Source of the DNA: Hyphomonadaceae bacterium BRH_c29
Lineage (GTDB): Bacteria; Pseudomonadota; Alphaproteobacteria; Caulobacterales; Hyphomonadaceae
Direction: 5' to 3'
DNA length: 52,153 nucleotides
NCBI GenBank assembly: GCA_000961695.1
Contig: LADW01000069.1
Coordinates: 1 to 52,153 of the forward strand
A program made the position numbers and the translations under genes. Below are positions 546 through 30,142 of this stretch, one piece after another. The notes under the pieces are model-generated. The model was not told the DNA's origin, searched no databases, and was given only the letters and a program-made list of their open reading frames with translations. Position 1 is the first letter of the stretch. Each line of letters begins with the position of its first letter.

Positions 546-1580
546 TTATTTTTGGGACTTTGACTTCCCGGCTTCCACGATCTCTTTCCAGGGGCCGAAT
601 TTGTGCTGTTCCTGCGAATAGTCATCGGCATAGGGCGGGAAGGGTGCGTCGGCAGGTTTGCGGGTCCGGTCCGGATAGTCCTGATCCAGTCCGGCCTTTT
701 CAGGCCGTGGCTGAATGTTGATGAAGGCGGCGACATCGAAGGCTTCTTCTTCCGTCAGGATCGGTGCCTCGTAGGTCACGCCGAACGGCATATTGGCACG
801 AATGAAGCCCGCCGCCTTGATGATCCGGTGCATCCCGGCGCCATTGTTGAAACTGTCCGGGCCCCAGAGCGGCGGATACAGATAGCCGGTGCTCCCATCC
901 GTTTGCGGAGCGCCCTGACCTTCCGGACCATGACAGACAGAACAATAGGTCGTGTAGACTTCGGCACCTCGCGCCGGATCTGCCGCGCGGTCCATCAAGG
1001 CAAGGGATGGCGCGCCTCTGCCATCCATGCCTGGCGGCAACGTGTCACTCAGAAATCCGATATAGGCAATCATCGCCGCGATTTCCGGGGAATCGGCGGG
1101 CAGGGCGCGACCGCTCATGCTCCGCTCGAAGCAGCCATTGATTCTCTGGGTGAGGGTCCTGACTTCATTCTCGCGCGCCATGTCTCTTGGATAGGCGTCG
1201 GCAACGCCAATGAACGATAGCCCATAGCGCTGGCGACCGGCGTCCTGATGGCAGGAACCGCAAGCGAGATGATTGCCTGCATACCGCATGTTCGGATCGG
1301 CAACGTCTGGCCCAACATAGTCGTAGGTGCTGCGGATCAGTGCTTCGCCGTAGAGTACCTGATCCTTATGCGGTCCGTCCGTGAGCATTGCTGGATCAGG
1401 CTGCGGCCAGACTTCAGGCTTGGCGACAGTCGCATCCGGGTTCGCCGCAGCGTAGGTGGCCGCCATCTCATCACTAGCCGTGCCGGTCGTTTCGCTCACT
1501 TCCCTGTCTGCGCCACACGCCGCTGCAGAGAGCAACAGGAATGCCGAAGCGACAAGTCTGATCGATGGGGTGTTTTTCAT
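546..1580 (-). CDS. TsdA-like dihaem cytochrome c (thiosulfate dehydrogenase family)
   Basis: Predicted exported dihaem c-type cytochrome of 344 aa. An N-terminal hydrophobic segment ends in LLSAAACGAD, which resembles a lipoprotein signal with Cys22. Haem motifs are CGSCH at 107-111 and CSVCH at 213-217. The segment RINGCFERSMSGR (Cys150) matches the conserved block of TsdA enzymes, in which the Cys is a haem axial ligand. Known TsdA enzymes oxidise thiosulfate to tetrathionate or run the reverse reaction; the substrate here is inferred. It is followed 27 bp downstream by the IS end and preceded, 39 bp away, by a DUF2804 gene on the same strand. A general dihaem cytochrome of the same fold is the main alternative. 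Confidence 0.8.
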   Translation of the reverse strand: MKNTPSIRLVASAFLLLSAAACGADREVSETTGTASDEMAATYAAANPDATVAKPEVWPQPDPAMLTDGPHKDQVLYGEALIRSTYDYVGPDVADPNMRYAGNHLACGSCHQDAGRQRYGLSFIGVADAYPRDMARENEVRTLTQRINGCFERSMSGRALPADSPEIAAMIAYIGFLSDTLPPGMDGRGAPSLALMDRAADPARGAEVYTTYCSVCHGPEGQGAPQTDGSTGYLYPPLWGPDSFNNGAGMHRIIKAAGFIRANMPFGVTYEAPILTEEEAFDVAAFINIQPRPEKAGLDQDYPDRTRKPADAPFPPYADDYSQEQHKFGPWKEIVEAGKSKSQK

Positions 1581-1619
1581 ACCTGGATACTTCTCTTGGA
1601 CGACGCTGAGAGGGGGAAC

Positions 1620-2639
1620 TTACCAGCGGTTACGGACTTCTTCTGCGAAACCGGGCAGGGAGTCGATCTTCAGAACTGTCCCATCATCAAGAATCGCCTC
1701 GCCTGAGAAAAGTCCAAAAACCTGATCCTGCGCCGTCTTGAAGAGGCCAAGATCCGTTGTGTGGTGGCGGTTAACGATGGGCTCGAAGCGCATTTCAAAG
1801 CGGCCATCATTACTGGTAAAACGCCACGGCGCAGAGTCCGGCGCCCCCCCGGGCATGTGGAATGTCACCTGATCCAGCTTGTGGGCCTTGCCATCGACAA
1901 AGAGCATGTTCTCGGACGCGGCGGACGTGTCGCCAAACCCATAGCCGATATTGAAGCCCACACTTTGCCCGCCGGACTTTCCAGAGGCTGAGCCCCAATA
2001 CCAGACATTGTCATACGTCCAGACGCCCCGGCCCCAATCAAGAACACCGAACGCCATCTCCGGCTCGAAGCGGAATGTTTCGTCCCCGATGGACACGTCA
2101 CCTGTGGCCGCCAGGCAGTTGATCTTCTGATTGTAGTAAAAGGCCTTCGGGGCCTTGGGAAAGGGCGTGGCGATGACCATCCGGTCCATCGGCGGCTGAT
2201 CCAGCAAGAGCTCACCTTTGAGACCTTTTCCACCGTCGAAGCGTGGCGCATCAACGATCAAGCGCCGCCCACCGCGCTCATGGCGGAAGGCGAGGGTCAT
2301 GTCCTTGTGTTCCTGTACGATATCGCCCTCATCGGCGCTTTCCGGCAAGCGCATACGTCCGAAGGGGAAGGGGATCACAGCGCCGTCGTTGAGAGCCGTC
2401 TTGTTCCGGAAGTCCATCCAGGACGTACCGAGAAAACCGAGATAGCCATTATCCGCAACAGTCAGAGCGAGCCCGAAGTCAGGTGTCAGAATGCAGTAAT
2501 AGTCCCATTCCTTGATGCGCAGACCATTCGCCCGGATCGCGGCGCGCTGATAGCGGCGCACCTCTTCCGTCGCCCAGCCGCTCTCGAGCAGCCGTCCGCG
2601 CGCGTCGAGAAGCGGTCCTGTCCCCATTCTGGTCTGCAT
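1620..2639 (-). CDS. DUF2804 family protein
   Basis: Protein of 339 aa without a signal peptide or membrane segments. The middle contains the run characteristic of DUF2804 proteins: NQKINCLAATGDVSIG, then FGVLDWGRGVWTYDNVWYWG, then GFNIGYGFGDTSAASENM. Many Trp and Gly residues and alternating strands suggest a beta-rich fold. The biochemical function is not known to me. The ATG at 2639 is preceded by a strong ribosome binding site (GAGAGGAAGG on the minus strand). It is the first gene of a likely two-gene unit with the TsdA-like cytochrome and is divergent from rlpA. Confidence 0.8.
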   Translation of the reverse strand: MQTRMGTGPLLDARGRLLESGWATEEVRRYQRAAIRANGLRIKEWDYYCILTPDFGLALTVADNGYLGFLGTSWMDFRNKTALNDGAVIPFPFGRMRLPESADEGDIVQEHKDMTLAFRHERGGRRLIVDAPRFDGGKGLKGELLLDQPPMDRMVIATPFPKAPKAFYYNQKINCLAATGDVSIGDETFRFEPEMAFGVLDWGRGVWTYDNVWYWGSASGKSGGQSVGFNIGYGFGDTSAASENMLFVDGKAHKLDQVTFHMPGGAPDSAPWRFTSNDGRFEMRFEPIVNRHHTTDLGLFKTAQDQVFGLFSGEAILDDGTVLKIDSLPGFAEEVRNRW

Positions 2640-2858
2640 GAAATTCCTTCCTCTCGGCGCGGCATTGCTTCGCTCGCGTCTGCTGTGCTTGTTATCGCTG
2701 CAACATCACCTGATGCGCAGTGCGGCGGCAAGGCCCCTGCTTGAAATCTGGTAAACAGCCGGTAACCGTAGTCCGAAGATCCTTCAGGTATGGTTCATAA
2801 GACCTGTACCACGGTGTGATATCGAGGGTTTGTTGGATGGCAGAATAGCCGTCCGAAA

Positions 2859-2875
2859 GGGTCATCAAATGACCC
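2859..2875. promoter_or_regulatory. 7-bp perfect palindrome upstream of rlpA
   Basis: GGGTCAT-CAA-ATGACCC is a perfect inverted repeat with a 3-nt centre, ending 23 nt before the rlpA start in the 259-bp region between two divergent genes. It could be an operator or a small hairpin in the rlpA leader. I recognise no specific regulator motif, and no other convincing element was seen in 2640-2898. Confidence 0.35.
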
Positions 2876-2898
2876 GCTACTTCAGAATGAGGTGAACC

Positions 2899-4242
2899 TT
2901 GAAGACCGTTTATTCCGCATCGCGATCGCTGAACCTGCCCTTGCTCGCCCTCACAGGCGTGCTGGCTGTTGCGCTGGCTGCTCCGGCCTACGCCGATAAG
3001 CGCCACCCGGCCCCGATTGTCTATGCGACAGGAACTTCTCCTTATCCTGCCGGCACGCCGCAATATATCGCGCCCGCCAAGGCACCGGACGCGCAAACCA
3101 AGAAACAGGCCCGGATCCAGTTCCGTTATCCTGGCACGACGGCCCCAGCGCCAGCTGCCAGCACGGACTATGCGGGGCAGGGGACGACGACTTCCGAGCC
3201 CGCCCCCCGCCAGTATGCCAGCATCGAAACCCCGGCCCCGACTTACAACACCGCCGCTGGCGTCACCGCACAGGACAGCTTCGACACCCGCGCCGCTGCA
3301 GCCCGCATGGAAGCGGAGCGCCAGGTTTCTGCTGTCGAGAGTGAAGCCCTTCCAAGCCTCGCCGCCGCACCGATGCCAGAGCCAGCGCCGGTTATTCCGG
3401 CACCTCTTCCGGCCGCTCCAGCCGCGCAATCCCAGCTGATGCAACCTGCTGTTCGTGATCTGACCCCAGCCGCTGCGTACGCCGTGTCGGGCGAGCCCGT
3501 GCCCGTCTTTGACGAAACCGGCATCGCGATCGTCTATGGCCCCGAATTCGACGGCCTGCCGACAGCCAATGGCGAAACCTATAATCCGAACGAAATGACC
3601 GCGGCCCACCCGACTCTGCCGCTGCCGAGCCTGATCCAGGTGGTGAACACCGCCACGGGACAGGAAGTCGTGCTGCGCGTGAATGATCGCGGTCCGTTCG
3701 AGGACGGCGCCTCGCTGCAGGTTTCGCCGCGCGCAGCGAACGAACTCGGCATGAACGGGGCAGGGAAGGCTACGCTGCGGATCCGCTATCTGGGTGCTGC
3801 GCCTGCTGCAAATATCCCTACAGCGCCGGCTATCCCCGCGCCGCAGATGATGGCCGAGTCGACCTATCCGCCGGTCCAGCAGACCGCTCAGGCTGAAACG
3901 GCCGCTGACTACCTCGTGCCAGCATCTTACGAACCAGCTCCGGTCCAGCCGCAGCCGGTCCCCCAAGTGCAACCGACCTACACTTATTCTGCACCCGTCG
4001 CGGCACCTGCAGGAGACTATTTCGTGCAGATCGGCTCTTTCACCGACATCGCGAATGCTCAGACACTCAGCAACCGTGTTCAGGCGTCGCTTCCGGTCAC
4101 TATCGTCCCGGCCCGCGTAAACGGTGCTGACTACTTCCGCGTCCGCGTTGGCCCACTCCTCACCCGTGACGAGGCTGAACGTGCCCGGCAAGACCTTTCC
4201 TATGCCGGTATCTCGCAAGGTCGCGTCGTTGCTGGCGAATAA
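2899..4242 (+). CDS. rlpA: RlpA-like septal lytic transglycosylase with SPOR domain
   Basis: Exported 447-aa protein: signal peptide (residues 1-32, ending APAYADK), long Pro/Ala-rich linker, double-psi beta-barrel at about 205-300, a second Pro/Gln-rich linker, and a C-terminal SPOR domain (DYFVQIGSF to the end) that binds denuded septal peptidoglycan. The His of MTAAHPTLP and the Asp of VNDRGPF, both needed for catalysis in characterised RlpA, are present. The usual D-L-S following the barrel is SLQVS here. The start is TTG at 2899: an in-frame stop lies two codons upstream and a TGAGG ribosome binding site precedes it. It should cleave peptidoglycan strands at division and lies next to another wall enzyme. 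Confidence 0.88.
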   Translation: MKTVYSASRSLNLPLLALTGVLAVALAAPAYADKRHPAPIVYATGTSPYPAGTPQYIAPAKAPDAQTKKQARIQFRYPGTTAPAPAASTDYAGQGTTTSEPAPRQYASIETPAPTYNTAAGVTAQDSFDTRAAAARMEAERQVSAVESEALPSLAAAPMPEPAPVIPAPLPAAPAAQSQLMQPAVRDLTPAAAYAVSGEPVPVFDETGIAIVYGPEFDGLPTANGETYNPNEMTAAHPTLPLPSLIQVVNTATGQEVVLRVNDRGPFEDGASLQVSPRAANELGMNGAGKATLRIRYLGAAPAANIPTAPAIPAPQMMAESTYPPVQQTAQAETAADYLVPASYEPAPVQPQPVPQVQPTYTYSAPVAAPAGDYFVQIGSFTDIANAQTLSNRVQASLPVTIVPARVNGADYFRVRVGPLLTRDEAERARQDLSYAGISQGRVVAGE

Positions 4243-4310: not shown

Positions 4311-4352
4311 ATTTGATTCCGGCCTCCACACAGAACGTTGGAGGCCCCTCCC

Positions 4353-5522
4353 ATGCCATTGCCGCGCATTGCCCGGAACGCTGTCTTTGCTGCAGTTATC
4401 GCCCTCGCCGGTGTTGCGGGTCTCGCGAACGCGCAGATCCTCGACACGCCGGCATCCCATGCCGTGATCATGGATCATGAAACCGGCACGATCCTGTTCT
4501 CCAAAGCCGGGTCCGAACCGATGGTCCCCGCTTCGATGACCAAGATGATGACCGCCTACACGGTGTTTGAAATGGTCCGGCGCGGCGAACTGTCGATGAG
4601 CGACAAGTTCACAGTTAGCGAGAACGCCTGGCGCAAAGGCGGTTTCCCGTCTGGCACGTCGACCATGGGCCTCGCCCCGAAGGACACGCCAACCGTTGAA
4701 GAGCTGCTCCACGGCGTGATCATCATGTCCGGCAATGATGCCTGCATCACGCTGGCGGAAAACATCTCCGGATCCGAAGAAGCCTTCGCGCGGCGCATGA
4801 CCGACCTCGCCCACGAGCTGGGACTGAATTCCGCGAACTTCCTGAACGCCACCGGCCTGGAAGCGGTTGGCCACGTCATCTCGGCTGAAGATCTCGCGAA
4901 GCTCGCCAAACTGACCATCGACAACTATCCGGAGTATTACGCCTGGTACTCGCTGCCTTCTTACACTTGGCGCGACTTTACGCAGGCCAACCGGAACCCT
5001 CTGCTGGAGGTTTCCGGCGCAGATGGTGTGAAGACCGGACACCTCGAAGTTTCCGGCTACGGACTGACGGCATCCGCTGTGCGCGATGGTGTACGCCGGA
5101 CTGTCGTAATCAACGGGCTCAGTTCCATGGCAGAGCGCGCCTCTGAAGGCGAGCGGATGATGCGGATCGCCTTCAACAGCTTCGACCTGAAGACACTCAC
5201 ACCCGCAGCGGTGACGCTTCCGGACGTGTCGATCTGGCTCGGCGAAACGCAGAAAGTGCCTGTGACCCTTGGCAATGAAGTACGGCTGGCAGGCTACAAG
5301 GCGAGCCTTGAAAAGGCTAAGGCAGAGATCGTTCTGCCGGGCCCGGTCGAAGCTCCGGTGAAGAAGGGCGACAAAATTGGCAAGCTGGTCATTTCCGTGG
5401 AAGGCCAGCCGCCTGTTGAAGCACCAATTCTTGCTGGCGCCGATGTCGGAAAGCTCGGCTTCTTCGGACGCGCCATCGAAGGCCTCAGCCAGATGATCGG
5501 AGGCGGTGAAAACCAGTCGTGA
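4353..5522 (+). CDS. dacC: D-alanyl-D-alanine carboxypeptidase (PBP5/6 family)
   Basis: Penicillin-binding protein that trims the terminal D-Ala from peptidoglycan stem peptides in the periplasm. Of 389 aa, the first about 25 form a signal peptide ending in LANAQ. The serine-peptidase S11 motifs are present: SMTK (nucleophile Ser and Lys), SGND, and KTG in GVKTGH. A C-terminal beta domain follows and the last residues (FGRAIEGLSQMI) fit an amphipathic membrane anchor. I chose ATG at 4353 rather than an upstream in-frame TTG at 4338 because GGAGG lies just before it and the signal peptide then starts normally. The stop overlaps the GTG start of tmk. The dacC versus dacA symbol is approximate. 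Confidence 0.88.
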   Translation: MPLPRIARNAVFAAVIALAGVAGLANAQILDTPASHAVIMDHETGTILFSKAGSEPMVPASMTKMMTAYTVFEMVRRGELSMSDKFTVSENAWRKGGFPSGTSTMGLAPKDTPTVEELLHGVIIMSGNDACITLAENISGSEEAFARRMTDLAHELGLNSANFLNATGLEAVGHVISAEDLAKLAKLTIDNYPEYYAWYSLPSYTWRDFTQANRNPLLEVSGADGVKTGHLEVSGYGLTASAVRDGVRRTVVINGLSSMAERASEGERMMRIAFNSFDLKTLTPAAVTLPDVSIWLGETQKVPVTLGNEVRLAGYKASLEKAKAEIVLPGPVEAPVKKGDKIGKLVISVEGQPPVEAPILAGADVGKLGFFGRAIEGLSQMIGGGENQS

Positions 5523-6169
5523 GTCTTGGTCGCTTCATAACGCTGGAAGGCGGTGAAGGCACCGGCAAGTCCACCTTGCTGGCCGCTTTGCGCGAGAGAC
5601 TGGAAGCCGCTGGAAAAGCCGTCATCCTGACGCGAGAACCGGGCGGGACCGAGCTGGCCGAAGCCATCCGGAACCTTGTTCTGCATCCGCCGGAAGGTCA
5701 GGTCTGGTCGTCCATGGCTGAGGCGCTGCTGATGAATGCGGCTCGCACTGACCATTTGGAAAAGAAGATCCGCCCGGCGCTGGAAGCCGGAAGCTGGGTT
5801 CTGTGCGACCGCTTTGCCGATTCTACACGCGTCTATCAAAGCGTCCAGAACGGCGTAAGCGCGAACGTCCTGAAGCTGCTGGAGAGCTCCGTACTTGGCG
5901 CCACGTATCCAGACCTGACACTGGTACTTGATGCGCCTGTCGACCAGGCCGCCGGCCGACGCGCCGAGCGCGGCGGAAGCGCGGACGCGTTTGAGCTGCG
6001 TGACAAGACATTCCACGAGGCAGTGCGGCAGGCCTTTATTGATGTCGCCCACTCAGAACCTGCGCGTTGCGCACTGATTGATGCCTCTCGTACAGCCGAA
6101 GACGTTGCCGAAGCTGCCTGGCGCCAGATCGAACAACGGCTCGGCGGATTTTCCGGAGACGCATCTTGA
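5519..6169 (+). CDS. tmk: Thymidylate kinase
   Basis: Phosphorylates dTMP to dTDP for DNA synthesis in the cytoplasm. The 216-aa protein has the P-loop GGEGTGKST near the N-terminus, TREPGG for substrate binding, and CDRFADST, the family's DR(Y/F) block. The start is GTG at 5519, overlapping the dacC stop by four bases. The stop overlaps the TTG start of holB (TTGA). Pairing of tmk with holB is a widespread bacterial arrangement. Confidence 0.95.
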   Translation: MSLGRFITLEGGEGTGKSTLLAALRERLEAAGKAVILTREPGGTELAEAIRNLVLHPPEGQVWSSMAEALLMNAARTDHLEKKIRPALEAGSWVLCDRFADSTRVYQSVQNGVSANVLKLLESSVLGATYPDLTLVLDAPVDQAAGRRAERGGSADAFELRDKTFHEAVRQAFIDVAHSEPARCALIDASRTAEDVAEAAWRQIEQRLGGFSGDAS

Positions 6170-7101
6170 GCGCGGCCTTGCCTCTCTGCGGCCACGCCGA
6201 TGCTGAACGGGCTTTCGGGGCTGCTGCGGCCAGCGGTCGGATGCACCACGCATGGATGATCGAGGGGCCGTCCGGCATCGGCAAGGCACGTTTCGCAATG
6301 AGGGCAGCGGCCTGGTTGCTTGGTGCGCGCGGTCCGAAAGATGCGCCGTTTGATGCGCCAGCAGATGATCCAATCATGTCGCGCTGCCTGTCGAGTGGGC
6401 ATCCGGACCTGCGGGTGCTGACCCGCGAACTGAACGACAAGGGCAAGCTGAAGCAGGATATCTCGATCGAGCAGATCCGCACTTTCAACGAGTTCTTCAC
6501 GTACCGGCCGGCACTCGGGGGCTGGCGCGTCGGCATAATCGACTCGCTGGACGAGTTGAACCGAAATTCTTCGAACGCTGTCCTGAAGACGCTGGAAGAA
6601 CCGCCAAAGGCCGCCATCATGTTCCTGGTCAATCATGGCTCACGTCCGGTATTGCCAACGATCCGGTCGCGTTGTCGTATACTGCGTCTGCATTCTTTGT
6701 CGGACAAAGACATGTCTGCGGCGCTGGCGCAGCAGGGCTTTGAGGGTGATGTCGCCAGCATCCATCATGGCCGGCCTGGGCTGGCAGTCGAGCGGTCGTC
6801 TGAGACGAGCCGTATCGCGACGAATGCCGCCCGTACGCTGATGAAGTCCATGCCGCGCCCGAATGATGCGGTTGTCACGCGCGCCATTCAGGCAGCAGGC
6901 GCAGACCCGATAGCGTTTGAAGCATTCCGGGATGAAGTCCTCTCCAAGTTGGCCGACATGGCGACGGATGCGCCAGAGAGGGCCCGAACCTGGCTGAGCG
7001 CTGTGAAGCTGATCGGAGAGGCAGACGAGCTCAATATGGATCCGGAGCAGGCGGCCGCGAAACTGATATCCGGACTTTTGTTCACTCCCGTCCGACACTA
7101 G
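6166..7101 (+). CDS. holB: DNA polymerase III subunit delta'
   Basis: Clamp-loader subunit of the replicative polymerase, 311 aa. An AAA+ nucleotide-binding fold is seen, with GPSGIGKARFA as a P-loop lacking the usual Ser/Thr after Lys, as is common for delta', followed by RPALGGWRVGIIDSLDELN, SNAVLKTLEEPP and the sensor/arginine-finger block IRSRCR. The start is TTG at 6166, overlapping the tmk stop. It is translationally coupled to tmk and followed 9 bp later by tatD, the usual tmk-holB-tatD order. Confidence 0.93.
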   Translation: MSAALPLCGHADAERAFGAAAASGRMHHAWMIEGPSGIGKARFAMRAAAWLLGARGPKDAPFDAPADDPIMSRCLSSGHPDLRVLTRELNDKGKLKQDISIEQIRTFNEFFTYRPALGGWRVGIIDSLDELNRNSSNAVLKTLEEPPKAAIMFLVNHGSRPVLPTIRSRCRILRLHSLSDKDMSAALAQQGFEGDVASIHHGRPGLAVERSSETSRIATNAARTLMKSMPRPNDAVVTRAIQAAGADPIAFEAFRDEVLSKLADMATDAPERARTWLSAVKLIGEADELNMDPEQAAAKLISGLLFTPVRH

Positions 7102-7110
7102 ACCGGCGCC

Positions 7111-7887
7111 ATGTTTGACACTCACGTAAACCTCCACGGCGAACCCTTTTCAGAAGACCTGGATGAGGTGCTTGCCCGCGCGCGGGGCGCCGGCATTAGT
7201 CGCTTCCTGGCTATCTGTGACCGGTTCGATAACTTTCCGGCCGTCCTCGCTATCGCGAAATCTCACGATGACATTTGGTGCTCAGCTGGCGTGCACCCGC
7301 ATCACGCAAAAGACTTCCGGGACCTGACAATCGAAGACCTGTCAGACGCCGCAGCCCTTTCGGAAGTGGTCGCCATCGGTGAAACGGGACTGGATTTTTA
7401 TTACGGCCACAGCAGCGAAGAAGATCAGGTCAACAGCTTGCGCAAGCACATCCATGTAGCGCGGGACACAGGACTGCCACTTATCCTGCACACACGGGAC
7501 GCGGATGATCTCATGGCTGATATTCTGGAGCAGGAATTTGAAGCAGGTCCATTCAGGCCGCTGTTGCATTGCTACACGGGGGGGGCTGACCTCGCACAGC
7601 GCGCGCTGGCGCTCGGCGCCTACGTTTCTGTCTCGGGAATCCTGTCCTTCAAGAGCGCACGTGACGTGCGCGCCGTCATTGCAGACGTGCCGATGGATCG
7701 GATTATTCTGGAAACGGATTGTCCGTATCTGGCGCCCGTGCCGATGCGCGGCAGAAGGAATGAACCAGCTTACCTTCAATATGTCGCCGAAGCGCTGGCA
7801 AACCTGAAAGACATGCCTGTTGATGACGCCAAGCAGATCACCGAAGAAAATTCCTTGCGCTTGTTCAGCAAGGTAACGGACACATGA
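7111..7887 (+). CDS. tatD: TatD family metal-dependent hydrolase
   Basis: Amidohydrolase-fold enzyme of the TatD family (DNase activity is known for members), 258 aa. Visible motifs are FDTHVNLHGEPF at the N-terminus with the metal-binding His, VAIGETGLDFYY, LPLILHTRDA, LLHCYTGG and ILETDCPYLAPVPMRG with the catalytic/metal Asp. Length and order are typical. It lies in the tmk-holB-tatD series, and its stop overlaps the next start (ATGA). Confidence 0.92.
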   Translation: MFDTHVNLHGEPFSEDLDEVLARARGAGISRFLAICDRFDNFPAVLAIAKSHDDIWCSAGVHPHHAKDFRDLTIEDLSDAAALSEVVAIGETGLDFYYGHSSEEDQVNSLRKHIHVARDTGLPLILHTRDADDLMADILEQEFEAGPFRPLLHCYTGGADLAQRALALGAYVSVSGILSFKSARDVRAVIADVPMDRIILETDCPYLAPVPMRGRRNEPAYLQYVAEALANLKDMPVDDAKQITEENSLRLFSKVTDT

Positions 7888-8687
7888 TTGCGAAGACGCG
7901 CTGCACGCTGCTTGGTACCGGGTCATCCGGCGGCGTGCCGCGTGTCGGCGGCGACTGGGGCGTGTGCGACCCGACCGAACCGAAGAACCGCCGACGGCGC
8001 TGCTGCGTCCTGATCGAGAAGGAAAGCGATGATGGCGGACTGACATCCGTACTGATCGACACATCGCCGGACCTGCGCGGACAGCTGCTCGACGCAGGCG
8101 TGACGCATCTCGATGGGCTCGTTTACACGCATGAGCACGCCGACCAAGTCCACGGAATTGATGACATACGACCGCTGGTCATTCGCAGGCGCGCTGCGCT
8201 GCCAGTCTTCATGAATGCCGCGACGCGGGAAATCCTGACACGGCGTTTCGATTATTGCTTTGAAGGCAAGGGTGGCTATCCACCGATCCTGGAGGTCCAG
8301 CCAGATATCGAACCGGGCAAGCCGTTCAGCATCTCTGGCGCTGGAGGCGCGCTGGAACTTCTGCCGTTCGATATGGAGCATGGACGCATCCGGTGCCTCG
8401 GTTTCCGCGTTGGCGCGTTTGCCTACTGCAATGACGTCAGCGACCTACCGGACGCGGCGAAGGCGTCACTCCAGGGTCTCGACACACTTGTCATAGATGC
8501 GCTGCGCTATACCGAGCACCCGACGCACGCCAACGTCGCCAAGGCGCTGGACTGGATTGGCGAATTGAAGCCGCGACACGCCGTGCTGACCAACATGCAC
8601 GTGGATCTGGACTATACGACGCTCAAAAGGGAGCTGCCCACCGGCATCGAGCCAGGCTTCGACGGCATGGTGCTTGAGATCGTTTAA
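7884..8687 (+). CDS. MBL-fold metallohydrolase, PhnP-like
   Basis: Metallo-beta-lactamase-fold protein of 267 aa. TGSSGGVPR at the N-terminus and the metal-binding motif THEHADQVHGIDD are those of PhnP-type phosphodiesterases. Further candidate metal ligands are in FDMEHG, YCNDVS and TNMHVDLDY. Cys residues in VCDP and RRRCC fit the structural zinc site of PhnP-like enzymes. Members cleave cyclic phosphodiesters; the physiological substrate here is unknown. It follows tatD with a 4-nt overlap, a common pairing in alphaproteobacteria, and ends the plus-strand run before the dif-like region. Confidence 0.88.
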   Translation: MIAKTRCTLLGTGSSGGVPRVGGDWGVCDPTEPKNRRRRCCVLIEKESDDGGLTSVLIDTSPDLRGQLLDAGVTHLDGLVYTHEHADQVHGIDDIRPLVIRRRAALPVFMNAATREILTRRFDYCFEGKGGYPPILEVQPDIEPGKPFSISGAGGALELLPFDMEHGRIRCLGFRVGAFAYCNDVSDLPDAAKASLQGLDTLVIDALRYTEHPTHANVAKALDWIGELKPRHAVLTNMHVDLDYTTLKRELPTGIEPGFDGMVLEIV

Positions 8688-8712
8688 AACGCTGGTCCAC
8701 GGTCGCATCATT

Positions 8713-8740
8713 ATTTCCCATAATGATGATTATGCGACTT
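8713..8740 (-). other. dif: dif-like XerC/XerD recombination site
   Basis: On the minus strand the 28 bp read as an 11-bp arm AAGTCGCATAA, a 6-bp centre TCATCA, and an 11-bp arm TTATGGGAAAT. Compared from memory with E. coli dif, the XerD-side arm matches at 9 of 11 positions and the XerC-side arm at 7 of 11, with the inner CGCATAA and TTATG blocks intact and 6-bp spacing. It lies in a 198-bp gap between convergent genes, a normal setting for the chromosome dimer resolution site. An extra inverted copy of the outer arm (GTCGCAT at 8702-8708) makes a larger dyad. It could instead be a terminator-type palindrome. The rest of 8688-8885 holds nothing else I can support. Confidence 0.6.
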
Positions 8741-8885
8741 GTGGATATAAATCACGCGGGTTCTCAATGGCTTAGCTGTATTGGCGGTTCATCGCATCGG
8801 CCAGTCTTGGCGCCGTAGGCCATGCATACACACGTCGCCTCCGCAGCCGCTTTGGCCCCACGCACTGTATGTATGTAAGCTTTTG

Positions 8886-9320
8886 TTAAGCTGCGCCTTT
8901 GGTCCGGGGCGTCTTCGCGGTCACCCCTTCCCCGCTTTTGGGTGGCATCGGCGGCCCGATAAGCGAGAACAGGATATGGTCCAGCATTGGCTTGCGAATG
9001 AAGGCGGCAAAGCCAGCCTCTATTGCCAGACGCTCAAGACCTGACGTCTCCCAGCCTGACACCATCGCGGCTGGCGTATTCACGCCCTCTCCCCTCAACG
9101 CCTTCAACAAGTCGACACCGGACATGCCGTCCATCTTGTAGTCGACAAGAAGGTAGTCGAACGAGGTTTTCATGGGCGAAGCCAGGAATTCGGCGCCGCC
9201 CGCAAAGCCCACCGCAACGTATCCACGCGCGGTGAGCAATACGGCCAGTGACCGCCTGACAGCTTCGCTGTCATCGATGATGGCGACGTTCTTAGGTCTG
9301 TAAAGCAAGGCGTTCGGCAT
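8886..9320 (-). CDS. Single-domain response regulator (receiver only)
   Basis: A receiver domain of about 144 aa without an output domain. IIDDSEAVR supplies the acidic pocket, LLVDYKMDGMSG the phospho-acceptor Asp, VSGW the Ser/Thr switch and IRKP the conserved Lys. The C-terminal tail (PKSGEGVTAKTPRTKG) is short and basic. I chose the ATG at 9320; a start 14 codons upstream at 9362 would add residues without receiver character, and neither has a clear ribosome binding site. It lies downstream of fixL-fixJ on the same strand, so it could act as a phosphate sink or adaptor for FixL, which is an inference. Confidence 0.78.
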   Translation of the reverse strand: MPNALLYRPKNVAIIDDSEAVRRSLAVLLTARGYVAVGFAGGAEFLASPMKTSFDYLLVDYKMDGMSGVDLLKALRGEGVNTPAAMVSGWETSGLERLAIEAGFAAFIRKPMLDHILFSLIGPPMPPKSGEGVTAKTPRTKGAA

Positions 9321-9385
9321 GGCCCACAGCAGCAAAATTATGGATGCTGCACTTTGGCGCACGTGCCGACAGGTGTCTTTAAGTA

Positions 9386-10018
9386 CTAGTCCCTAACTTC
9401 ACCATCGAATCCGATGCCGGCGGCAAAAGCGATCCGAAGGACGCCGGAAAGGCTGGTGGCACCCAGCTTCTCCATAAGATTTGCCCTGTGGATTTCGACG
9501 GTTCGCGGCGAAATATCGAGCGTGTCGGCGATAGACTTGTTGGTCAGGCCGTCCACCAGGCCGTCAAGAACTTCGCGCTCCCGCGGGGTGAGATGCTCGA
9601 TTTTGCCACGAGCCTCATCAAGCAGAAGATCACGCTGAGAACGCTCATCCATTCGCTTGAAAGCGCGCTCAAGAGCGCCCACAAGGGTTTGTTTCTCATA
9701 CGGTTTTTCGACAAAATCCACGGCGCCGGCTTTCATGGCCTTAACTGCCACGTTGACGTCGCCATGCCCCGTCAGCACTATGACCGGCATCGCAATACCG
9801 CGCGCGTTGAGCTGCTGCTGGACCTCCAGCCCATCCATCCGGGGCATCTGCACGTCCAGCAGGATGCAGCCAGCCGCGACGTCATCGACGGCCTCGAGAA
9901 AAGTAACGCCGTCCGAATAGGTCTTCACGGCAAATCCGGCATGGCGCAGCATGAAGCTCGCCGAATGGCGAACAGCGTCATCGTCGTCGACAAGGTGGAT
10001 CAGTTTCTGTTCACTCAT
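9386..10018 (-). CDS. fixJ: FixJ-like response regulator
   Basis: Two-domain regulator of about 210 aa: a receiver (LVDDDDAVR, phospho-Asp in LLDVQMPRMDG, LTGHGDV, EKPYEK) and a LuxR/FixJ-type helix-turn-helix (LTPREREVLDGLVDGLTNKSIADTLDISPRTVEIHRANLMEKL). It should be phosphorylated by the adjacent FixL and activate transcription under low oxygen. ATG at 10018 is preferred; a TTG at 10027 in the same frame overlaps the fixL stop and would couple the two genes. The neighbouring ccoNOQP operon is the expected direct or indirect target. Confidence 0.9.
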   Translation of the reverse strand: MSEQKLIHLVDDDDAVRHSASFMLRHAGFAVKTYSDGVTFLEAVDDVAAGCILLDVQMPRMDGLEVQQQLNARGIAMPVIVLTGHGDVNVAVKAMKAGAVDFVEKPYEKQTLVGALERAFKRMDERSQRDLLLDEARGKIEHLTPREREVLDGLVDGLTNKSIADTLDISPRTVEIHRANLMEKLGATSLSGVLRIAFAAGIGFDGEVRD

Positions 10019-10023
10019 ACTAT

Positions 10024-11166
10024 TCAACTAGCCGCATCGCGCCTCAGTGTGAACCGAAAACAAGTCCCCCCATCTGCGGATGGAATCGCTTCGATCTTGC
10101 CGCCATGTGCTTCGACAATTGTCTGGCAGATTGAAAGGCCAAGACCCATCCCTTGCGATTTCGAAGTCATGAACGGCTTGAAGAGCGTCTGACGGACCTC
10201 TTCGGACATCCCCGGCCCGTTATCGCAGACTTCCACGGTAATGAAATCGTCGGGCCCGCGCGAGGCTCCAAGAAATATCTGCGGCGCAGCCACGCCATGC
10301 AGCGCTTCCGCAGCATTTCGAAGCAGATTGATGATGACTTGCTGCACCTGAATCGGGTCCGCCATCACCGCGCCAATATCCGAAACAATCTGCTTGTCGA
10401 TGGGAATGTCGGCCAGGTCGCCGGAGATTCGCGCAAGCGCGATTGAATCAGTAAGCAGTGGCGTCAGCGGAACGGAACGCGCATCGATCTCTCCACGCGA
10501 GACATAACCACGCAGCTTGCGCACGATTTCTCCCGCACGAACCGCCTGGCGCGAGGCTTCGTCCAGCGCTTCATGCAGTATTTCGTGCGCGTCTTCCGAA
10601 TCGGAATCCAGCAGATCCCGGCCTGCCTCCAGATAGTTGGCGACCGCTGTCAGTGGCTGGTTCAGCTCATGCGCCAGAGCCGATGCCATGGTGCCGACGG
10701 CGCTCATGCGTGAGAAATGGACCAGTTCGGCCTGCATCTCCTGCATACGCAATTCATTGCGCCGCTGTTCGGACAGATCCCTGACGAAAGCGGTAAAAAG
10801 AAAGCTGTCGCCGACCCGGGCCTCACCGATTTTGAGGTCCACAGGGAACATCGTACCATCTGAGCGTTTAGCCGAAACGACCCTTCCGACACCAATGATG
10901 TGGCGCTTCCCCGTTTTCAGGTAGGCGCCGATATAGTTCTGGTGATTGGACTGGTCATGTCCGCCCATCAGCTGGCTAACATCCTGGCCGATGACGTCCT
11001 CAGCCTTGTATCCAAAAAGTTTTTCGGCTGCGCTGGAAAAAGCCAATATCTGGCCTTTCTCATTGATCACGATCATGCCGTCCGGCACCGAGGCCAGAAT
11101 TGACCTCAGATGTAGCTGGAGCGCCTCCAGATCCGTTGAGACGGCGTCAGCGGTTAGGTCGGTCAA
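10024..11166 (-). CDS. fixL: FixL-like oxygen-sensing histidine kinase
   Basis: Soluble 380-aa sensor kinase without membrane segments. One PAS domain (about 20-135) carries the haem-binding features of FixL: the proximal His at position 75 (SNHQNYIGAYLKTGK) and the Arg of IIGVGR (Arg95), matching His200 and Arg220 of Bradyrhizobium FixL from memory. The kinase core has the phospho-acceptor His166 in ALAHELNQPL, the N box NLLRNAAEAL, DNGPGM and GMGLGLSIC. Oxygen release from haem should activate autophosphorylation and transfer to FixJ. Its stop overlaps the possible TTG start of fixJ. Confidence 0.92.
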   Translation of the reverse strand: MTDLTADAVSTDLEALQLHLRSILASVPDGMIVINEKGQILAFSSAAEKLFGYKAEDVIGQDVSQLMGGHDQSNHQNYIGAYLKTGKRHIIGVGRVVSAKRSDGTMFPVDLKIGEARVGDSFLFTAFVRDLSEQRRNELRMQEMQAELVHFSRMSAVGTMASALAHELNQPLTAVANYLEAGRDLLDSDSEDAHEILHEALDEASRQAVRAGEIVRKLRGYVSRGEIDARSVPLTPLLTDSIALARISGDLADIPIDKQIVSDIGAVMADPIQVQQVIINLLRNAAEALHGVAAPQIFLGASRGPDDFITVEVCDNGPGMSEEVRQTLFKPFMTSKSQGMGLGLSICQTIVEAHGGKIEAIPSADGGTCFRFTLRRDAAS

Positions 11167-11205
11167 GGCTTGCGGCTCCTGTTGGTTGTCGGAGACCGTG
11201 GCAGA

Positions 11206-11484
11206 TTATCGACGAACAGCAAACGCGGCGCGGCGGGCAGGCTCGCGCGATGCCGTCAGGGCCATCATGCCGCTTGCCACAATCATCGCGGCGCCGATTG
11301 CGGCGACTGGACAGCCCCAGCAATGGCCAGCAAAGGTCAGCAAGGAATCACCGTGTGCTTCCGTCGCCGAACCGCAGCGGAATGCGAGATAGTCCTGCAG
11401 CGTCATTGGAGTGTTCGTGTGCCGCCAGATCTTCAGCAGCCCTATGCCCAGAAGACCGGTTCCCGCCGTAAGCCATTTTGTCAT
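11206..11484 (-). CDS. Small membrane protein with GHCWGCP motif, unknown function
   Basis: A 92-aa protein with two hydrophobic segments (about 7-17 and 55-75), separated by a loop with one Cys (LAFRCGS). The motif FAGHCWGCP holds a His and a CxxC pair at the edge of the second segment, suggesting a metal, haem or redox role. I do not recognise the family. The ATG at 11484 is chosen because AAGGA lies about 8 nt upstream; an earlier in-frame ATG adds only MEHPRRIKL. It lies between fixL and ccoN and is divergent from ccoN, so a role in respiration or oxygen response is plausible but inferred. Confidence 0.65.
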   Translation of the reverse strand: MTKWLTAGTGLLGIGLLKIWRHTNTPMTLQDYLAFRCGSATEAHGDSLLTFAGHCWGCPVAAIGAAMIVASGMMALTASREPARRAAFAVRR

Positions 11485-11634
11485 CAGTTTGATCCTTCTT
11501 GGATGTTCCAATAGCTTTACCGAACTAATGCGGATGCGACAGCGAAGCCCATCCGTAGTTTACCGTATACCGGTTCGAAGTCGACACCGGCAATTAGGCG
11601 CCAGAATTCCAACGACTCGCAGGGGGTCTTAGAC

Positions 11635-13305
11635 GTGACTACGTTACTATCAAGACGGTCGTCGGCATTTGCCAGCATTGGCAGTGTCGCGGCCTTTACA
11701 AGCATCTTCGCCATATTGGCCTTGCTGATCGCAAGCCATGCAGCGGATCCGCTCATGGGGGTCCATGCATGGATGTTCCTGGGCCTTGTTGTCGTTGGCC
11801 TTTTGGCTCTTGCTCTCTGGGCAGGCAGCCTGAATGGCCGCGACCCATTCGACCAGACGGTCTATGAAGACACGATCGTCAAATTCGGTGTTGCAATCTC
11901 CATGTTCTGGGGCATCGCCGGTTTCCTGGTTGGGCTGATCATCGCCCTCCAGCTCGCCTTCCCCAACATCTTCTACTTCGAACAACTTGGCTGGACGAAC
12001 TTCGGACGCCTTCGCCCGCTGCACACGTCAGCGGTCATTTTCGCGTTCGGCGGCAACGTTCTGATCGCGACGAGCTTCTATGTTGTTCAGCGCACCTGCC
12101 GCACCCGCCTCGCTGGCGGCATGTGGCCGTGGTTCGTTTTCTGGGGCTACAACCTCTTCATCGCCATCGCCGGAACCGGCTATCTGATGGGGGTCACCCA
12201 GTCGAAGGAATACGCAGAACCGGAATGGTATGCTGATCTCTGGCTGACGATTGTCTGGGTCGCCTATCTTCTGGTCTTCCTGGGTACGATCTGGAAGCGG
12301 AAAGAACCCCACATCTATGTGGCCAACTGGTTCTATCTGTCTTTCATCGTGACGATCGCCATGCTGCACATCGTCAACAACCTGACGCTTCCCGTCTCGC
12401 TGACCGGCTCCAAGAGCTACCAGCTGTTCGGCGGCGTTCAGGATGCACTGACGCAATGGTGGTACGGCCACAATGCTGTGGGTTTCTTCCTGACCACCGG
12501 CTTCCTGGCCATCATGTACTACTTCATTCCGAAACGCGTGAACCGGCCGGTTTATTCTTACCGCCTGTCGATTGTGCACTTCTGGTCGCTGATCTTCATC
12601 TACATCTGGGCTGGTCCTCACCACCTACACTACACGGCTCTGCCGCAATGGGCTCAAACGCTCGGCATGACCTTCTCTGTGATGCTGTGGATGCCCAGCT
12701 GGGGCGGCATGATCAACGGTGTGATGACGCTGTCGGGTGCTTGGGACCGTCTTCGGACTGACCCGGTCGTCCGGATGATGGTCGTCGCGCTTGCGTTCTA
12801 CGGCATGTCGACCTTCGAAGGCCCATTGATGAGCGTTCGCGCCGTCAACGCTCTGTCGCACTACACCGAATGGGGCATCGCCCACGTTCACTCTGGTTCG
12901 ATGGGTTGGGTCGGCTTCATCTCCTTTGGTGCGCTCTACTGCGCCACCCAATGGCTCTGGAAGCGTCCATCACTCTACTCGCTGAAACTGGTGGAGTGGC
13001 ACTTCTGGCTCGCGACCATCGGCATCCTTTTCTACATCGTTGCGATGTACTTTGCCGGTATCCTCGAAGGCCTCATGTGGCGCGCTTACAATGAGTACGG
13101 TTTCCTTGAGTACAGCTTCGTTGAAACCGTCGAAGCCAAGCATATCAGCTACATGATCCGCGCACTCGGCGGCAGCCTCTACCTCACGGGCGCACTGATC
13201 ATGGCCTACAACCTTGTCCGCACGGCTCTCGGCCACGGCGCTGCTGCTGAGGGCGCGCGCCCGGCTAACGCACCTGCCGCCGCGACGCTTCAGCCCGCTG
13301 AATAG
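11635..13305 (+). CDS. ccoN: cbb3-type cytochrome oxidase subunit I
   Basis: Catalytic subunit of the high-affinity haem-copper oxidase, 556 aa with about 12 membrane segments. Haem and copper ligands lie in recognisable blocks: [15 protein letters not shown] (low-spin haem), [11 protein letters not shown] and [12 protein letters not shown] (CuB region), and [11 protein letters not shown] (haem ligands). The start is GTG at 11635, preceded by AGGGGG. It begins the ccoNOQP-GHIS run. The 150-bp divergent region upstream (11485-11634) should hold its promoter, but I found no convincing FNR/FixK dyad there. Confidence 0.97.
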
Positions 13306-13317
13306 GAGACTGATCTC

Positions 13318-14085
13318 ATGAGCTTGATAAAAAAGCACGAAACGCTTGAGCGTCACTCTCTGGCACTCACGTTGGGCATCCTGGTCGTCGTCGCCATCGG
13401 CGGGATCGTGGAAATCGCACCGCTCTTCTATCTCGAGAACACGATCGAGAAAGTTGAAGGGATGCGTCCGTACACGCCGCTCGAACTCGCCGGCCGCAAC
13501 GTCTACATCCGTGAGGGCTGCTATGTCTGCCACTCGCAGATGGTTCGTCCGCTGCGTGACGAGGTCGAGCGCTACGGACACTACTCTCTGGCTGCTGAGA
13601 GCATGTACGATCACCCGTTCCAATGGGGTTCGAAGCGGACGGGGCCAGACCTCGCCCGCGTCGGCGGCAAGTATTCGGACACATGGCATGTGGATCACCT
13701 GAAGAAACCGCAATCCATGGTTCCGGAGTCTGTGATGCCTCCGTATGCCTTCCTGGCGGATAATACTCTTCACTACGAAACGATCGGCGATCACCTCAAA
13801 GCCCTTCGTTTCGAGGGTGTCCCGTATACCGACGACATGATCGAGAGCGCAGCTGCCGACCTCCTCGCCCAGGCCGACCCAAATTCGGACTACGATGCGC
13901 AGGACGCACTCGTGGCCCGCTATGGAGACGCTTCGGGTCGTGAGGGCACGGTCCGGATTGCCGACTACGATGGCAACCCGGAAAAGGTGACCGAACTCGA
14001 TGCTCTCGTCGCTTATCTCCAGATGGTCGGAACACTGGTGGACTTCTCCACCTATGAAGCCGACGACCTGGACAACCGTAGATAA
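13318..14085 (+). CDS. ccoO: cbb3 oxidase monohaem cytochrome c subunit
   Basis: Membrane-anchored monohaem cytochrome c that passes electrons to CcoN, 255 aa. One N-terminal membrane helix (about 16-38) is followed by the haem motif CYVCH at 68-72 and the distal Met region in [11 protein letters not shown]. The block [21 protein letters not shown] is typical of CcoO. It starts 12 bp after ccoN with a GGAGA ribosome binding site. Confidence 0.97.
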
Positions 14086-14096
14086 GGGGCAGGGAG

Positions 14097-14258
14097 ATGT
14101 ACGAGACACTTTCCAAATTCGCTCAGACCTGGGGCCTGGGCCTATTCGTCCTGATGTTCGTTGTCGCGGTGGTGTACGCGCTATGGCCTTCGAACAAGAG
14201 CAAATTCCAAGCAGCGGCTTATGTGCCGCTCGATGAAGGGGAACCTGGAGATGAGTGA
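14097..14258 (+). CDS. ccoQ: cbb3 oxidase small subunit CcoQ
   Basis: A 53-residue single-span membrane protein (MYETLSKFAQTWGLGLFVLM at the N-terminus), with one helix at about 12-30 followed by the charged motif WPSNKSKFQAAA. This is the standard form and position of CcoQ, which stabilises the oxidase. AGGGAG precedes the ATG. The stop lies inside the start of ccoP (8-nt overlap), implying translational coupling. Confidence 0.93.
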   Translation: MYETLSKFAQTWGLGLFVLMFVVAVVYALWPSNKSKFQAAAYVPLDEGEPGDE

Positions 14259-15138
14259 GACCGACAAGGAAGTTGATGTCCTGTCCGGTGTGGAAACAAC
14301 CGGCCACGTCTGGGACGGCATCAAGGAATTGAATAATCCCCTGCCCCGCTGGTGGCTGTATATTTGGTACGGCACGATCTTCTGGGCGATCCTCTACATG
14401 ATCGCCATGCCAGCCTGGCCGTCGCTACCAGGCATGGGAGGTCGCAACACACCGGGGGTCCTCGGAATGTCCGACCGCTCTGCCGTGGCTGAAAGCGTGG
14501 CAACGCTACACGCTGAACGCAGTGCGGCGTCTTCCCAACTGCTGAACGCTTCGCTGCTGGACATCCAGAACAATCTCGACCTTCAGCAGTTTGCCATGGC
14601 CATGGGCGAGAGTGCCTTCGGCGACAACTGTGCCACCTGTCACGGTGCTGGTGGTCGCGGAGCAAAGGGCTATCCCATGTTGGCAGACGATGTCTGGCTT
14701 TGGGATGGCACGCTGGACGGTATCGAGCTGACACTGCTTCACGGAATCCGGAATGAAGAAGATCCGGACACTCGCTTTTCGGCGATGCCCGCCTTTGGTC
14801 GCGACGGCCTGCTGACTTCGGCTCAGATCGATGATCTGGTCCAGTATGTACTCAGCCTTAGCGGTCAAGCGACGGATCCAGCAGCAGCAGCCCGCGCTGA
14901 CGACCTGTTCCTGACCAACTGCGCAAGCTGTCACGGCATGGACGCAACAGGCTCGCGGGATGTCGGTGCACCGAACCTCACAGATGCCGATTGGCTCTAT
15001 GGTTCGGCTCCGGAAGATATCCGTATGACCATCACGAATGCTCGCAACTCCCAGATGCCTGCATGGCAGGGCCGTCTTGACGACGCCACCATCAAAGCTC
15101 TGGCTGTCTACGTGCACTCGCTTGGTGGCGGCGAATAA
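14251..15138 (+). CDS. ccoP: cbb3 oxidase dihaem cytochrome c subunit
   Basis: Dihaem cytochrome c of 295 aa. The N-terminal CcoP signature (TTGHVWDGIKELNNPLPRWW) precedes one membrane helix (about 35-55). Haem motifs are CATCH at 127-131 and CASCH at 224-228. I place the start at ATG 14251, inside the ccoQ 3' end, because CTGGAG precedes it and family N-termini begin with this acidic stretch. An upstream in-frame extension to 14161 would only be ccoQ read in another frame. Confidence 0.95.
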   Translation: MSETDKEVDVLSGVETTGHVWDGIKELNNPLPRWWLYIWYGTIFWAILYMIAMPAWPSLPGMGGRNTPGVLGMSDRSAVAESVATLHAERSAASSQLLNASLLDIQNNLDLQQFAMAMGESAFGDNCATCHGAGGRGAKGYPMLADDVWLWDGTLDGIELTLLHGIRNEEDPDTRFSAMPAFGRDGLLTSAQIDDLVQYVLSLSGQATDPAAAARADDLFLTNCASCHGMDATGSRDVGAPNLTDADWLYGSAPEDIRMTITNARNSQMPAWQGRLDDATIKALAVYVHSLGGGE

Positions 15139-15167
15139 ACCGACGTCTGCAATCAGGTGCCCAGGAA

Positions 15168-16613
15168 ATGACAACTATCATCGATCACACTAAGGCAAAT
15201 CCGCCGCCGCCTTCTCTGTATGAAGGCCGGAAGCAGATCTATCCGAAACTGGCCCACGGCAAGTTCCGGATGGTGAAGTGGATCGTGATGGCCGTCACCC
15301 TGGGCATCTACTACGTGCTGCCCTGGATCCGTTGGCCGCGTGGCGAAGGCATTCCCGACCAGGCCGTGCTGGCGGATTTCGAAGGCGAGAAATTCTATTT
15401 CTTCTGGTTCGAGATCTGGCCTCAGGAGCTCTACTATCTGGCCGGCCTCCTCATCATGGCGACCTTGGGCCTTTTCCTTGTAACGTCTCTGTTTGGACGC
15501 GCATGGTGCGGCTACACCTGCCCCCAAACTGTGTGGACTGACCTCTACATCTGGGTGGAACGCGCCTTCGAAGGCGACCGTGCAGCACGGATGCGTCTCG
15601 ACGCAGCGCCCTGGTCCTTCAACAAGGCCTGGAGGAAGTTCGGCAAGCACCTGATCTGGCTCGTTATCGCGTTCTGGACAGGCGGCGCTTTCATTCTTTA
15701 CTGGCACGACGCTCCGACCGTCGCGAAAGGCTGGTTCACGGGCGAAGCCCCACTGACGGCTTACTTCTTTGCGGGTATTCTGACATTCACCACATATTTC
15801 CTCGCAGGCTGGATGCGGGAACAGGTCTGCACCTATATGTGCCCCTGGCCGCGTATTCAGGGCGCTCTGACGGATGAAAATGCGCTCAACGTCACATACC
15901 GCTTTGACCGCGGCGAACCGCGCGCACCACACCGCAAAGGCGAAAGCTGGGAAGGCCGCGGCGACTGCATCGACTGCAAGCAGTGCGTTCAGGTTTGCCC
16001 GATGGGGATCGACATTCGGGATGGCGCGCAGCTGGAATGCATTCACTGCGCTCTTTGTATCGATGCCTGCGACGACATAATGAAAAAGGTCGGTCGCCCG
16101 ATAGGCCTGATCGCCTACGACACGGACAACGCAGTGGCGGCACGGGTCGCCGGCAAAAAGCCAGTCTACAAGGTCCTGCGTCCACGCACGCTGCTGTATG
16201 CAACACTGATGATCATTATCGGCGCGATGGTTGGATTTGGTTACTTCAACAAATCCTCCTTCGAAGTAAACGTGCTCAAGGACCGCTCGCCCCCCTTCAT
16301 CCGCCTGTCGGATGGAGACATCCGCAACGGATACACGCTGAAACTCGTCAACAAGTCATCGACGGCTCGGAATGTGGCCATTGAAATCCAAGGCCTGGAT
16401 GGCTCAGAGCTGCAGATGATCGGACTTGAGACGGAAGAGAATGGCGAGGTCGAACTGAACATGGGAGCCCACCGTGTTGACCGGTTCCGGATGCTGATCA
16501 CCCGTCACACTGAGGACACCGCGCCCCGCGCCAATTTTACGGTTATTGTCCGGGATACCGAGACCGGTGAAGTGGAAGACAGTTCCGCTGTCTTCGTCCA
16601 AGGAGGAAACTGA
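15168..16613 (+). CDS. ccoG: cbb3 oxidase assembly protein CcoG (FixG family)
   Basis: Membrane iron-sulfur protein of 481 aa that reduces copper during cbb3 oxidase maturation in studied bacteria. It has about five membrane segments. Cys-rich blocks are GRAWCGYTCPQTVWTD, EQVCTYMCPWPRIQG, and two ferredoxin-type 4Fe-4S motifs, CIDCKQCVQVCP and CIHCALCIDACD. A periplasmic Ig-like C-terminal domain follows the last helix (NKSSFEVNVLKDRSP onwards). It sits 29 bp after ccoP and its stop overlaps the ccoH start by one base. Confidence 0.95.
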   Translation: MTTIIDHTKANPPPPSLYEGRKQIYPKLAHGKFRMVKWIVMAVTLGIYYVLPWIRWPRGEGIPDQAVLADFEGEKFYFFWFEIWPQELYYLAGLLIMATLGLFLVTSLFGRAWCGYTCPQTVWTDLYIWVERAFEGDRAARMRLDAAPWSFNKAWRKFGKHLIWLVIAFWTGGAFILYWHDAPTVAKGWFTGEAPLTAYFFAGILTFTTYFLAGWMREQVCTYMCPWPRIQGALTDENALNVTYRFDRGEPRAPHRKGESWEGRGDCIDCKQCVQVCPMGIDIRDGAQLECIHCALCIDACDDIMKKVGRPIGLIAYDTDNAVAARVAGKKPVYKVLRPRTLLYATLMIIIGAMVGFGYFNKSSFEVNVLKDRSPPFIRLSDGDIRNGYTLKLVNKSSTARNVAIEIQGLDGSELQMIGLETEENGEVELNMGAHRVDRFRMLITRHTEDTAPRANFTVIVRDTETGEVEDSSAVFVQGGN

Positions 16614-19338: not shown

Positions 19339-19339
19339 C

Positions 19340-19489
19340 ATGAGCGGGATTCTGTTCCTGATTCCAATCGCCCTGTTCATGGGCCTGCTGGGCCTGGGGG
19401 CGTTCATCTGGTCTGTCCGCTCCGGTCAGTTCGACGATCCCGCTGGCTCTGCCAACCGCATCCTGATCGACGAAGACGAACCGCTTTAG
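19340..19489 (+). CDS. ccoS: cbb3 oxidase assembly protein CcoS
   Basis: A 49-residue single-helix protein beginning MSGILFLIPIALFMG, with the typical CcoS sequence GAFIWSVRSGQFDDPAGSANRIL and an acidic tail. CcoS is required for cofactor insertion into the cbb3 oxidase in studied species. ATG at 19340 follows the ccoI stop by one base. Its stop overlaps the convergent pxpC stop by three bases. Confidence 0.93.
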   Translation: MSGILFLIPIALFMGLLGLGAFIWSVRSGQFDDPAGSANRILIDEDEPL

Positions 19490-20412: not shown

Positions 20413-20413
20413 C

Positions 20414-21046: not shown

Positions 21047-21049
21047 ATC

Positions 21050-24152: not shown

Positions 24153-24155
24153 GCG

Positions 24156-24204: not shown

Positions 24205-24231
24205 AAGGGCAATAAAGCCGCTGCCGGAAGC

Positions 24232-25647: not shown

Positions 25648-25664
25648 GGGATTTCCCTTCCGGC

Positions 25665-28993: not shown

Positions 28994-29064
28994 CTGATCA
29001 CTCCTCCCATTGGCTCGCGCAGAGCCTGTTTCGAAACGTGACGGGAACCGGCCAGTTCCTGTTG

Positions 29065-30078: not shown

Positions 30079-30142
30079 GGTTCCTCCTGCCTCTGCCCGT
30101 TATGTGGGGTGAGTAACGCGTGGGCAAGTCTACCCAGCTATG

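Follow-up and report, generated by a model that had tools for sequence, protein, structure and literature searches.

Whether dif, the chromosome dimer resolution site, keeps a fixed address among bacterial genes is the question raised by a 28-bp sequence from Hyphomonadaceae bacterium BRH_c29. The sequence lies in the window (the whole stretch of 52,153 nucleotides that was analysed), just beyond a gene for an MBL-fold metallohydrolase (the MBL gene). dif sites are well known as a kind; the surprise is the fixed address beside the MBL gene. A survey of Proteobacteria (Carnoy and Roten, 2009; PMC2731167), in the excerpts used here, describes dif as having “no apparent specific genetic environment” and, in roughly one case in four, ties it to mobility genes; other known work was likewise drawn on in excerpt (PMC3025954, PMC5993296, PMC7901474, PMC4036050). 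A neighbour conserved across a class, as described below, differs from that account and runs counter to the reported lack of a specific environment. A literature search covering open-licence PMC articles found no report of dif-MBL linkage. Taken jointly, the results are best explained, with a probability of about 0.85, by the window site being the dif of its chromosome and by dif lying downstream of the same MBL gene in most alphaproteobacterial genomes in which both could be located.

The site and its parts are as follows.

8713..8740, minus strand: predicted 28-bp dif site, AAGTCGCATAA-TCATCA-TTATGGGAAAT
8730..8740, minus strand: XerC-type arm AAGTCGCATAA, predicted XerC site, matching the published dif layout
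8724..8729, minus strand: central spacer TCATCA (6 bp), predicted strand-exchange region, as in the published dif layout
8713..8723, minus strand: XerD-type arm TTATGGGAAAT, predicted XerD site, facing the MBL gene
8688..8885, no strand: convergent intergenic gap of 198 bp holding the site, between the end of the MBL gene (plus strand, 8687) and that of a response-regulator ORF (minus strand, 8886)

The two 11-bp arms are partly palindromic, lie 6 bp apart and keep the conserved inner ATAA and TTATG. The first-pass annotation, made from the letters of the window, had read dif-like arms with this spacing and with CGCATAA and TTATG blocks on the minus strand (8740-8713), in an intergenic position between convergent genes; the sequence is as it described, and the site, being inside the convergent gap, is non-coding. 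The G+C content of the 28-mer is 32%, against 61% for the window. Caulobacter crescentus belongs to the same GTDB order as the source organism, and the reference for its dif is reportedly the work of Jensen from 2006. The sequence listed for that species, AAGATCGACTTTGTAATTTATGTAAAGT, is terminus-linked like the window site but lacks the CGCATAA block (PMC2731167, Table 1). Rhizobial sites in the same table (Agrobacterium, Bradyrhizobium, and Mesorhizobium, all Rhizobiales) share the CGCATAA and TTATGG blocks with the window, whereas their spacer is GATATA and the outer part of their XerD arm GGAACTT, in place of TCATCA and GGGAAAT. According to excerpts of the survey, dif of Escherichia coli and other Proteobacteria has the same layout as the window site (11-bp XerC arm, 6-bp spacer, 11-bp XerD arm) and is likewise A+T-rich in a G+C-rich chromosome, intergenic, single and at the terminus, but its XerD arm is TTATGTTAAAT rather than TTATGGGAAAT (PMC2731167).

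The source assembly is a draft of 3,700,219 bp in 96 contigs with 94.6% completeness. The exact pattern CGCATAA-N6-TTATG, whose number of genome copies had been put forward as a check, occurs once in the window and once in the 3.70-Mb assembly. With one mismatch allowed it occurs at four places, two of which are the window site on its two strands, and a reversed control pattern occurs at five. A weight matrix built solely from alphaproteobacterial dif sites in the literature, 13 in all (PMC2731167, Table 1), scored the window site at 30.7 bits; when the window was randomised 60 times with a first-order Markov model, the best scores had a mean of 10.5 and a maximum of 25.0. Conservation in relatives, another proposed check, was also found: of 105 family genomes, 83 carry the core pattern and 9 the reversed control pattern, within the genus 39 of 42 genomes carry the core pattern, and the window's TCATCA-spaced 18-mer core occurs in 22 of 105 family genomes, its own included, among the matches listed. 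Three genomes of the same genus carry, besides the main site, a second dif-like core, CGCATAACAATCCTTATG, which is fully palindromic (G039:C74:157577, G041:C2:198586, and G043:C39:8688) and is possibly the Xer site of a plasmid or mobile element.

The polarity of KOPS-type motifs provides a test of position that is separate from the letters of the site itself.

637, 1098, 1653, 2365, 3175, 3758 (637..3765), plus strand: six forward KOPS-type motifs GGGNAGGG, pointing to dif
8925, 14339, 17378, 19983, 21587, 22681, 27418, 27793, 31841, 36675 (8925..36682), minus strand: ten reverse KOPS-type motifs, pointing to dif
14087, plus strand: one forward KOPS-type motif of contrary direction, right of dif

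Counts of this motif, which comes from E. coli, is presumed here to act as KOPS and may not be the KOPS of these FtsK proteins, were six forward and none reverse to the left of the site, and one forward and ten reverse to the right (Fisher p 0.0006). Because the polarity reverses within the window, its halves belong to different replichores with the terminus inside, as had been predicted for a genuine dif. The first-pass annotation also expected GC skew to turn at about 8.7 kb; this fails at window scale, since the skew is -0.025 both left and right of the site with no turn, and it holds in a single-contig relative, G075 (3,672,159 bp), which has an identical 28-mer.

In G075, the 200 kb on each side of dif hold 37 forward KOPS motifs on the left and 3 on the right, and 1 and 35 reverse motifs, respectively; the maximum of the cumulative KOPS count falls between -207 and +4,964 bp relative to dif. 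In 20-kb samples along the chromosome, GC skew keeps a positive sign between about 0.28 Mb and dif and is negative past dif round to 0.12 Mb, with exceptions of +0.0004 once and +0.003 in the stretch starting at dif; since the sampled signs change at these points, the distance between dif and the other skew switch is 49-53% of the chromosome. The dnaA gene of G075 lies 1.34 Mb from dif (36%) and hence not opposite it. It was dropped as an origin marker in favour of skew and KOPS because it is not at the skew switch. It lies about 0.4-0.55 Mb from the switch marking the likely origin. The KOPS reversal also brackets dif in single-contig genomes of four other families, with left/right counts of 26/3 forward and 4/16 reverse in G239, 8/0 and 0/8 in G263, 12/4 and 1/15 in G123, and 9/1 and 2/22 in G195. 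GC-skew maxima are 0.7 to 28 kb off dif in these four, and up to 28 kb across all five single-contig genomes; the median distance from GC-skew maximum to dif given in the survey excerpts is 7.3 kb (PMC2731167).

The genome also encodes candidate recombination machinery. The XerD model, the only Xer model applied, gave two strong matches of 287 and 240 bits, both short of its curated cut-off (329.6), and in five of the six genomes searched the matches to this model likewise fell short; FtsK-gamma gave one match above its cut-off (96.4 bits). Judging from sequence, FtsK, travelling along KOPS to dif, would activate XerC and XerD, and these would recombine two copies of dif, thereby resolving a chromosome dimer into its two monomers, so that Xer binding, strand exchange, and activation by FtsK are predicted at the 28-mer. 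On the basis of its architecture, single copy, recurrence in the family and KOPS reversal, and of the candidate XerC/D-type recombinases and FtsK-gamma, the 28-mer is very likely the chromosomal dif. As such, it would fix the terminus of this draft genome and assign the parts of the window to replichores.

The surroundings of the site were compared with 80 loci gathered by the MBL protein alone. In the window they are as follows.

4338..5522, plus strand: D-alanyl-D-alanine carboxypeptidase (PF00768), in 75/80 loci
5519..6169, plus strand: dTMP kinase, tmk (TIGR00041), in 74/80 loci
6166..7101, plus strand: DNA polymerase III delta' subunit-like, holB (PF13177), in 76/80 loci
7111..7887, plus strand: TatD-family DNase (TIGR00010), adjoining MBL in 80/80 loci
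7884..8687, plus strand: MBL-fold metallohydrolase (PF12706), the conserved neighbour of dif
8886..9362, minus strand: single-domain response regulator on the far side of dif, in 8/80 loci, conserved only in close relatives
9386..10027, minus strand: FixJ-like response regulator, matched in 17/80 loci

The MBL gene of the window is 82% identical to Hyphomonas records. The other flank of dif is rarely shared, with the response regulator and ccoN in 8 of the 80 loci and FixJ and FixL in 17, many of them distant, and the FixL/FixJ/ccoN side was ruled out as a second conserved flank. In many relatives (e.g. L052, L073, L103), an extra 1-2.5 kb, presumably metG, lies between holB and tatD and is missing from the window.

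A site threshold of 20 bits was applied to these loci, chosen after the background of G075 (third-best score 19.7 in 800 kb). At this threshold, a site was found in 48 of the 80 MBL loci and in one of 80 when the loci were reversed. All 48 sites are downstream of MBL, 47 of them on the opposite strand; 32 lie no further than 200 bp from MBL and 38 no further than 1 kb. The taxa include Hyphomonas, Sneathiella, Tepidicaulis, Parvibaculum, Ancylobacter, and bins of Xanthobacteraceae and Minwuiaceae. In the Xanthobacteraceae-type loci L082 and L103, a Rhizobiales-like site follows MBL by 45 and 69 bp. The remaining 32 loci, including Rhodobacteraceae-labelled ones and two of Henriciella, score below 20, some of them having little downstream sequence. 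The Henriciella loci L046 and L048 show no dif-like site within 6 kb downstream of MBL.

The linkage was then followed across the class with a dif model, R1, of 28 positions, made from 11 published sites and that of the window and used at E up to 0.05. It matched at least 134 of 193 class genomes, and the MBL protein matched at least 165 of the 193 at E up to 1e-30. The linkage sample consisted of 85 genomes, the present one included, with the best match of each kind among the matches listed, and in 75 of them both lie on the same contig. Among the matches listed, 28 of these 75 have dif no more than 200 bp downstream of MBL, 37 no more than 1 kb and 57 no more than 5 kb; over the whole sample, 66 of 85 have it downstream within 10 kb and 72 within 30 kb, and none has it upstream within 30 kb. 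The rest, again among the matches listed, are ten genomes with dif and MBL on separate contigs and three same-contig outliers, at +52 kb, +247 kb, and -1.2 Mb. In the 72 cases among the matches listed, dif is on the strand opposite to MBL in 63 and on the same strand in 9; R1 frequently matches these near-palindromic sites on both strands. By family, 46 of the 52 with dif and MBL on one contig have a case within 10 kb among the matches listed.

Twenty genomes were examined for missed sites; two, G119 and G198, were already among the 85, leaving 18. Of these 18, 13 have a site within 10 kb downstream of MBL that the matrix scores at 20.4-34.6, always on the opposite strand, the best background score in 40 stretches of 10 kb being 13.8. 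The other five have no site within 10 kb of MBL, and neither do G119 and G198. The linkage is therefore not universal, and some lineages are without it. A dif-like site within 10 kb downstream of MBL is missing, or dif is far off, in G119, G219, and G289 of family f17 and in G164 and G251 of family f61.

Two other genes were located relative to dif. The recA gene was taken as the control because nuoD, first chosen as unlinked, proved to be loosely linked to dif. Among the matches listed, none of 85 genomes has recA within 30 kb of dif, and in the 23 that have both on the same contig the nearest is at 37 kb. The nuoD gene lies 50-250 kb from dif, on either side, in 32 of 37 same-contig genomes, and in 36 of the 37 it is read toward dif. 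Its side is known in 28 genomes, being away from MBL in 21 and on the MBL side in 7.

These results make it likely that dif has stood at the 3' end of the tmk-holB-tatD-MBL run since the early Alphaproteobacteria, on one side and with near-constant polarity, inversions flipping this frozen unit while the terminus reshuffles around it. To part dif from the gene run with genes and KOPS polarity kept would need a breakpoint inside the MBL-dif gap, which is often below 200 bp, and also a matching second breakpoint across the terminus; because separation would need both, terminus inversions would carry dif and the gene run as a unit. Selection on polarity (KOPS and leading-strand genes), together with the tiny gap, would make breaks in the MBL-dif interval rare. 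In terminus inversions, more distant genes such as nuo would swap sides, and the gap between MBL and dif would expand mainly through insertion. Genes tens of kilobases from dif do cross sides yet still read toward it, as symmetric terminus inversions would give. In much of one class the address of the terminus is stable although the surrounding gene order changes, and what holds or moves the terminus over deep time becomes testable by breakpoint counts. Conservation is tight on one side of dif only, an asymmetry that the frozen unit by itself does not predict. Under the reading of a frozen unit around which the terminus reshuffles, the MBL gene would be a landmark for the terminus in draft genomes and metagenome bins, a simple rule by which dif and the boundary between replichores could be located in alphaproteobacterial genomes that are still unfinished.

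Another account, which appears doubtful, is that shared ancestry and generally slow change of gene order near the terminus suffice, with dif under no special constraint. The similar distance that nuo also holds from dif speaks in its favour. However, nuo swaps sides, and therefore gene order changes around the terminus, whereas, among the matches listed, all 72 cases within 30 kb have dif-MBL unflipped.

Direct selection of the linkage, for example because a strongly read run ending at dif, or action of TatD or the MBL enzyme near the terminus, aids segregation, seems unlikely. It would agree with the tight conservation of the MBL side only, with a gene run that is always read toward dif, and with the occurrence of nucleases in the TatD and MBL-fold families. 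Against it, gaps of 1-20 kb are common (among the matches listed, 35 of the 72 gaps below 30 kb exceed 1 kb), and these count against direct coupling because coupling in cis should not tolerate them; the linkage is also missing in some lineages.

Mobile elements that exploit Xer use dif-like sites, and the window site might in principle be the attachment site of such an element or of a plasmid instead of the chromosome's own dif. The extra, fully palindromic dif-like sites of family genomes such as G039, G041, and G043 give this idea some footing, yet it is very improbable here, as the site is single in its own genome, its flanks are housekeeping and regulator genes, and relatives have it in the same place and on the same strand beside housekeeping genes. 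The exact reversal of KOPS at the site strongly disfavours it. A plasmid search with the neighbourhood of the site gave matches to the two-component genes alone, at about 67%, and no plasmid covered 80% of the query.

An ordinary two-way terminator hairpin resembling dif by chance is scarcely credible. The convergent gap and a possible perfect 9-bp stem (8706-8714 with 8720-8728) would suit it, but the stem is A+T-rich, conservation covers the 28-mer without extending to the half of the stem that lies in the flank, and chance does not account for the family recurrence or the KOPS reversal. A search of the window against Rfam gave no match.

One further element had been described next to the site.

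8702..8714, plus strand: outer inverted arm GTCGCATCATTAT, not conserved

The first-pass annotation had proposed that its GTCGCAT (8702-8708) makes a dyad larger than that of a standard dif. The arm is present in the sequence, and the pair GTCGCATCATTAT / ATGATTATGCGAC is 85% complementary; the larger dyad as a functional extension of dif is not supported. Among 35 distinct TTATGGG-type sites, pairing of the flank with the spacer did not exceed what permutation gave (106 against an expected 110.7, p 0.87), and an outer copy of GTCGCAT matching at 6 or more of 7 positions occurs in three, the window being one of them. The outer arm is a private feature of the window.
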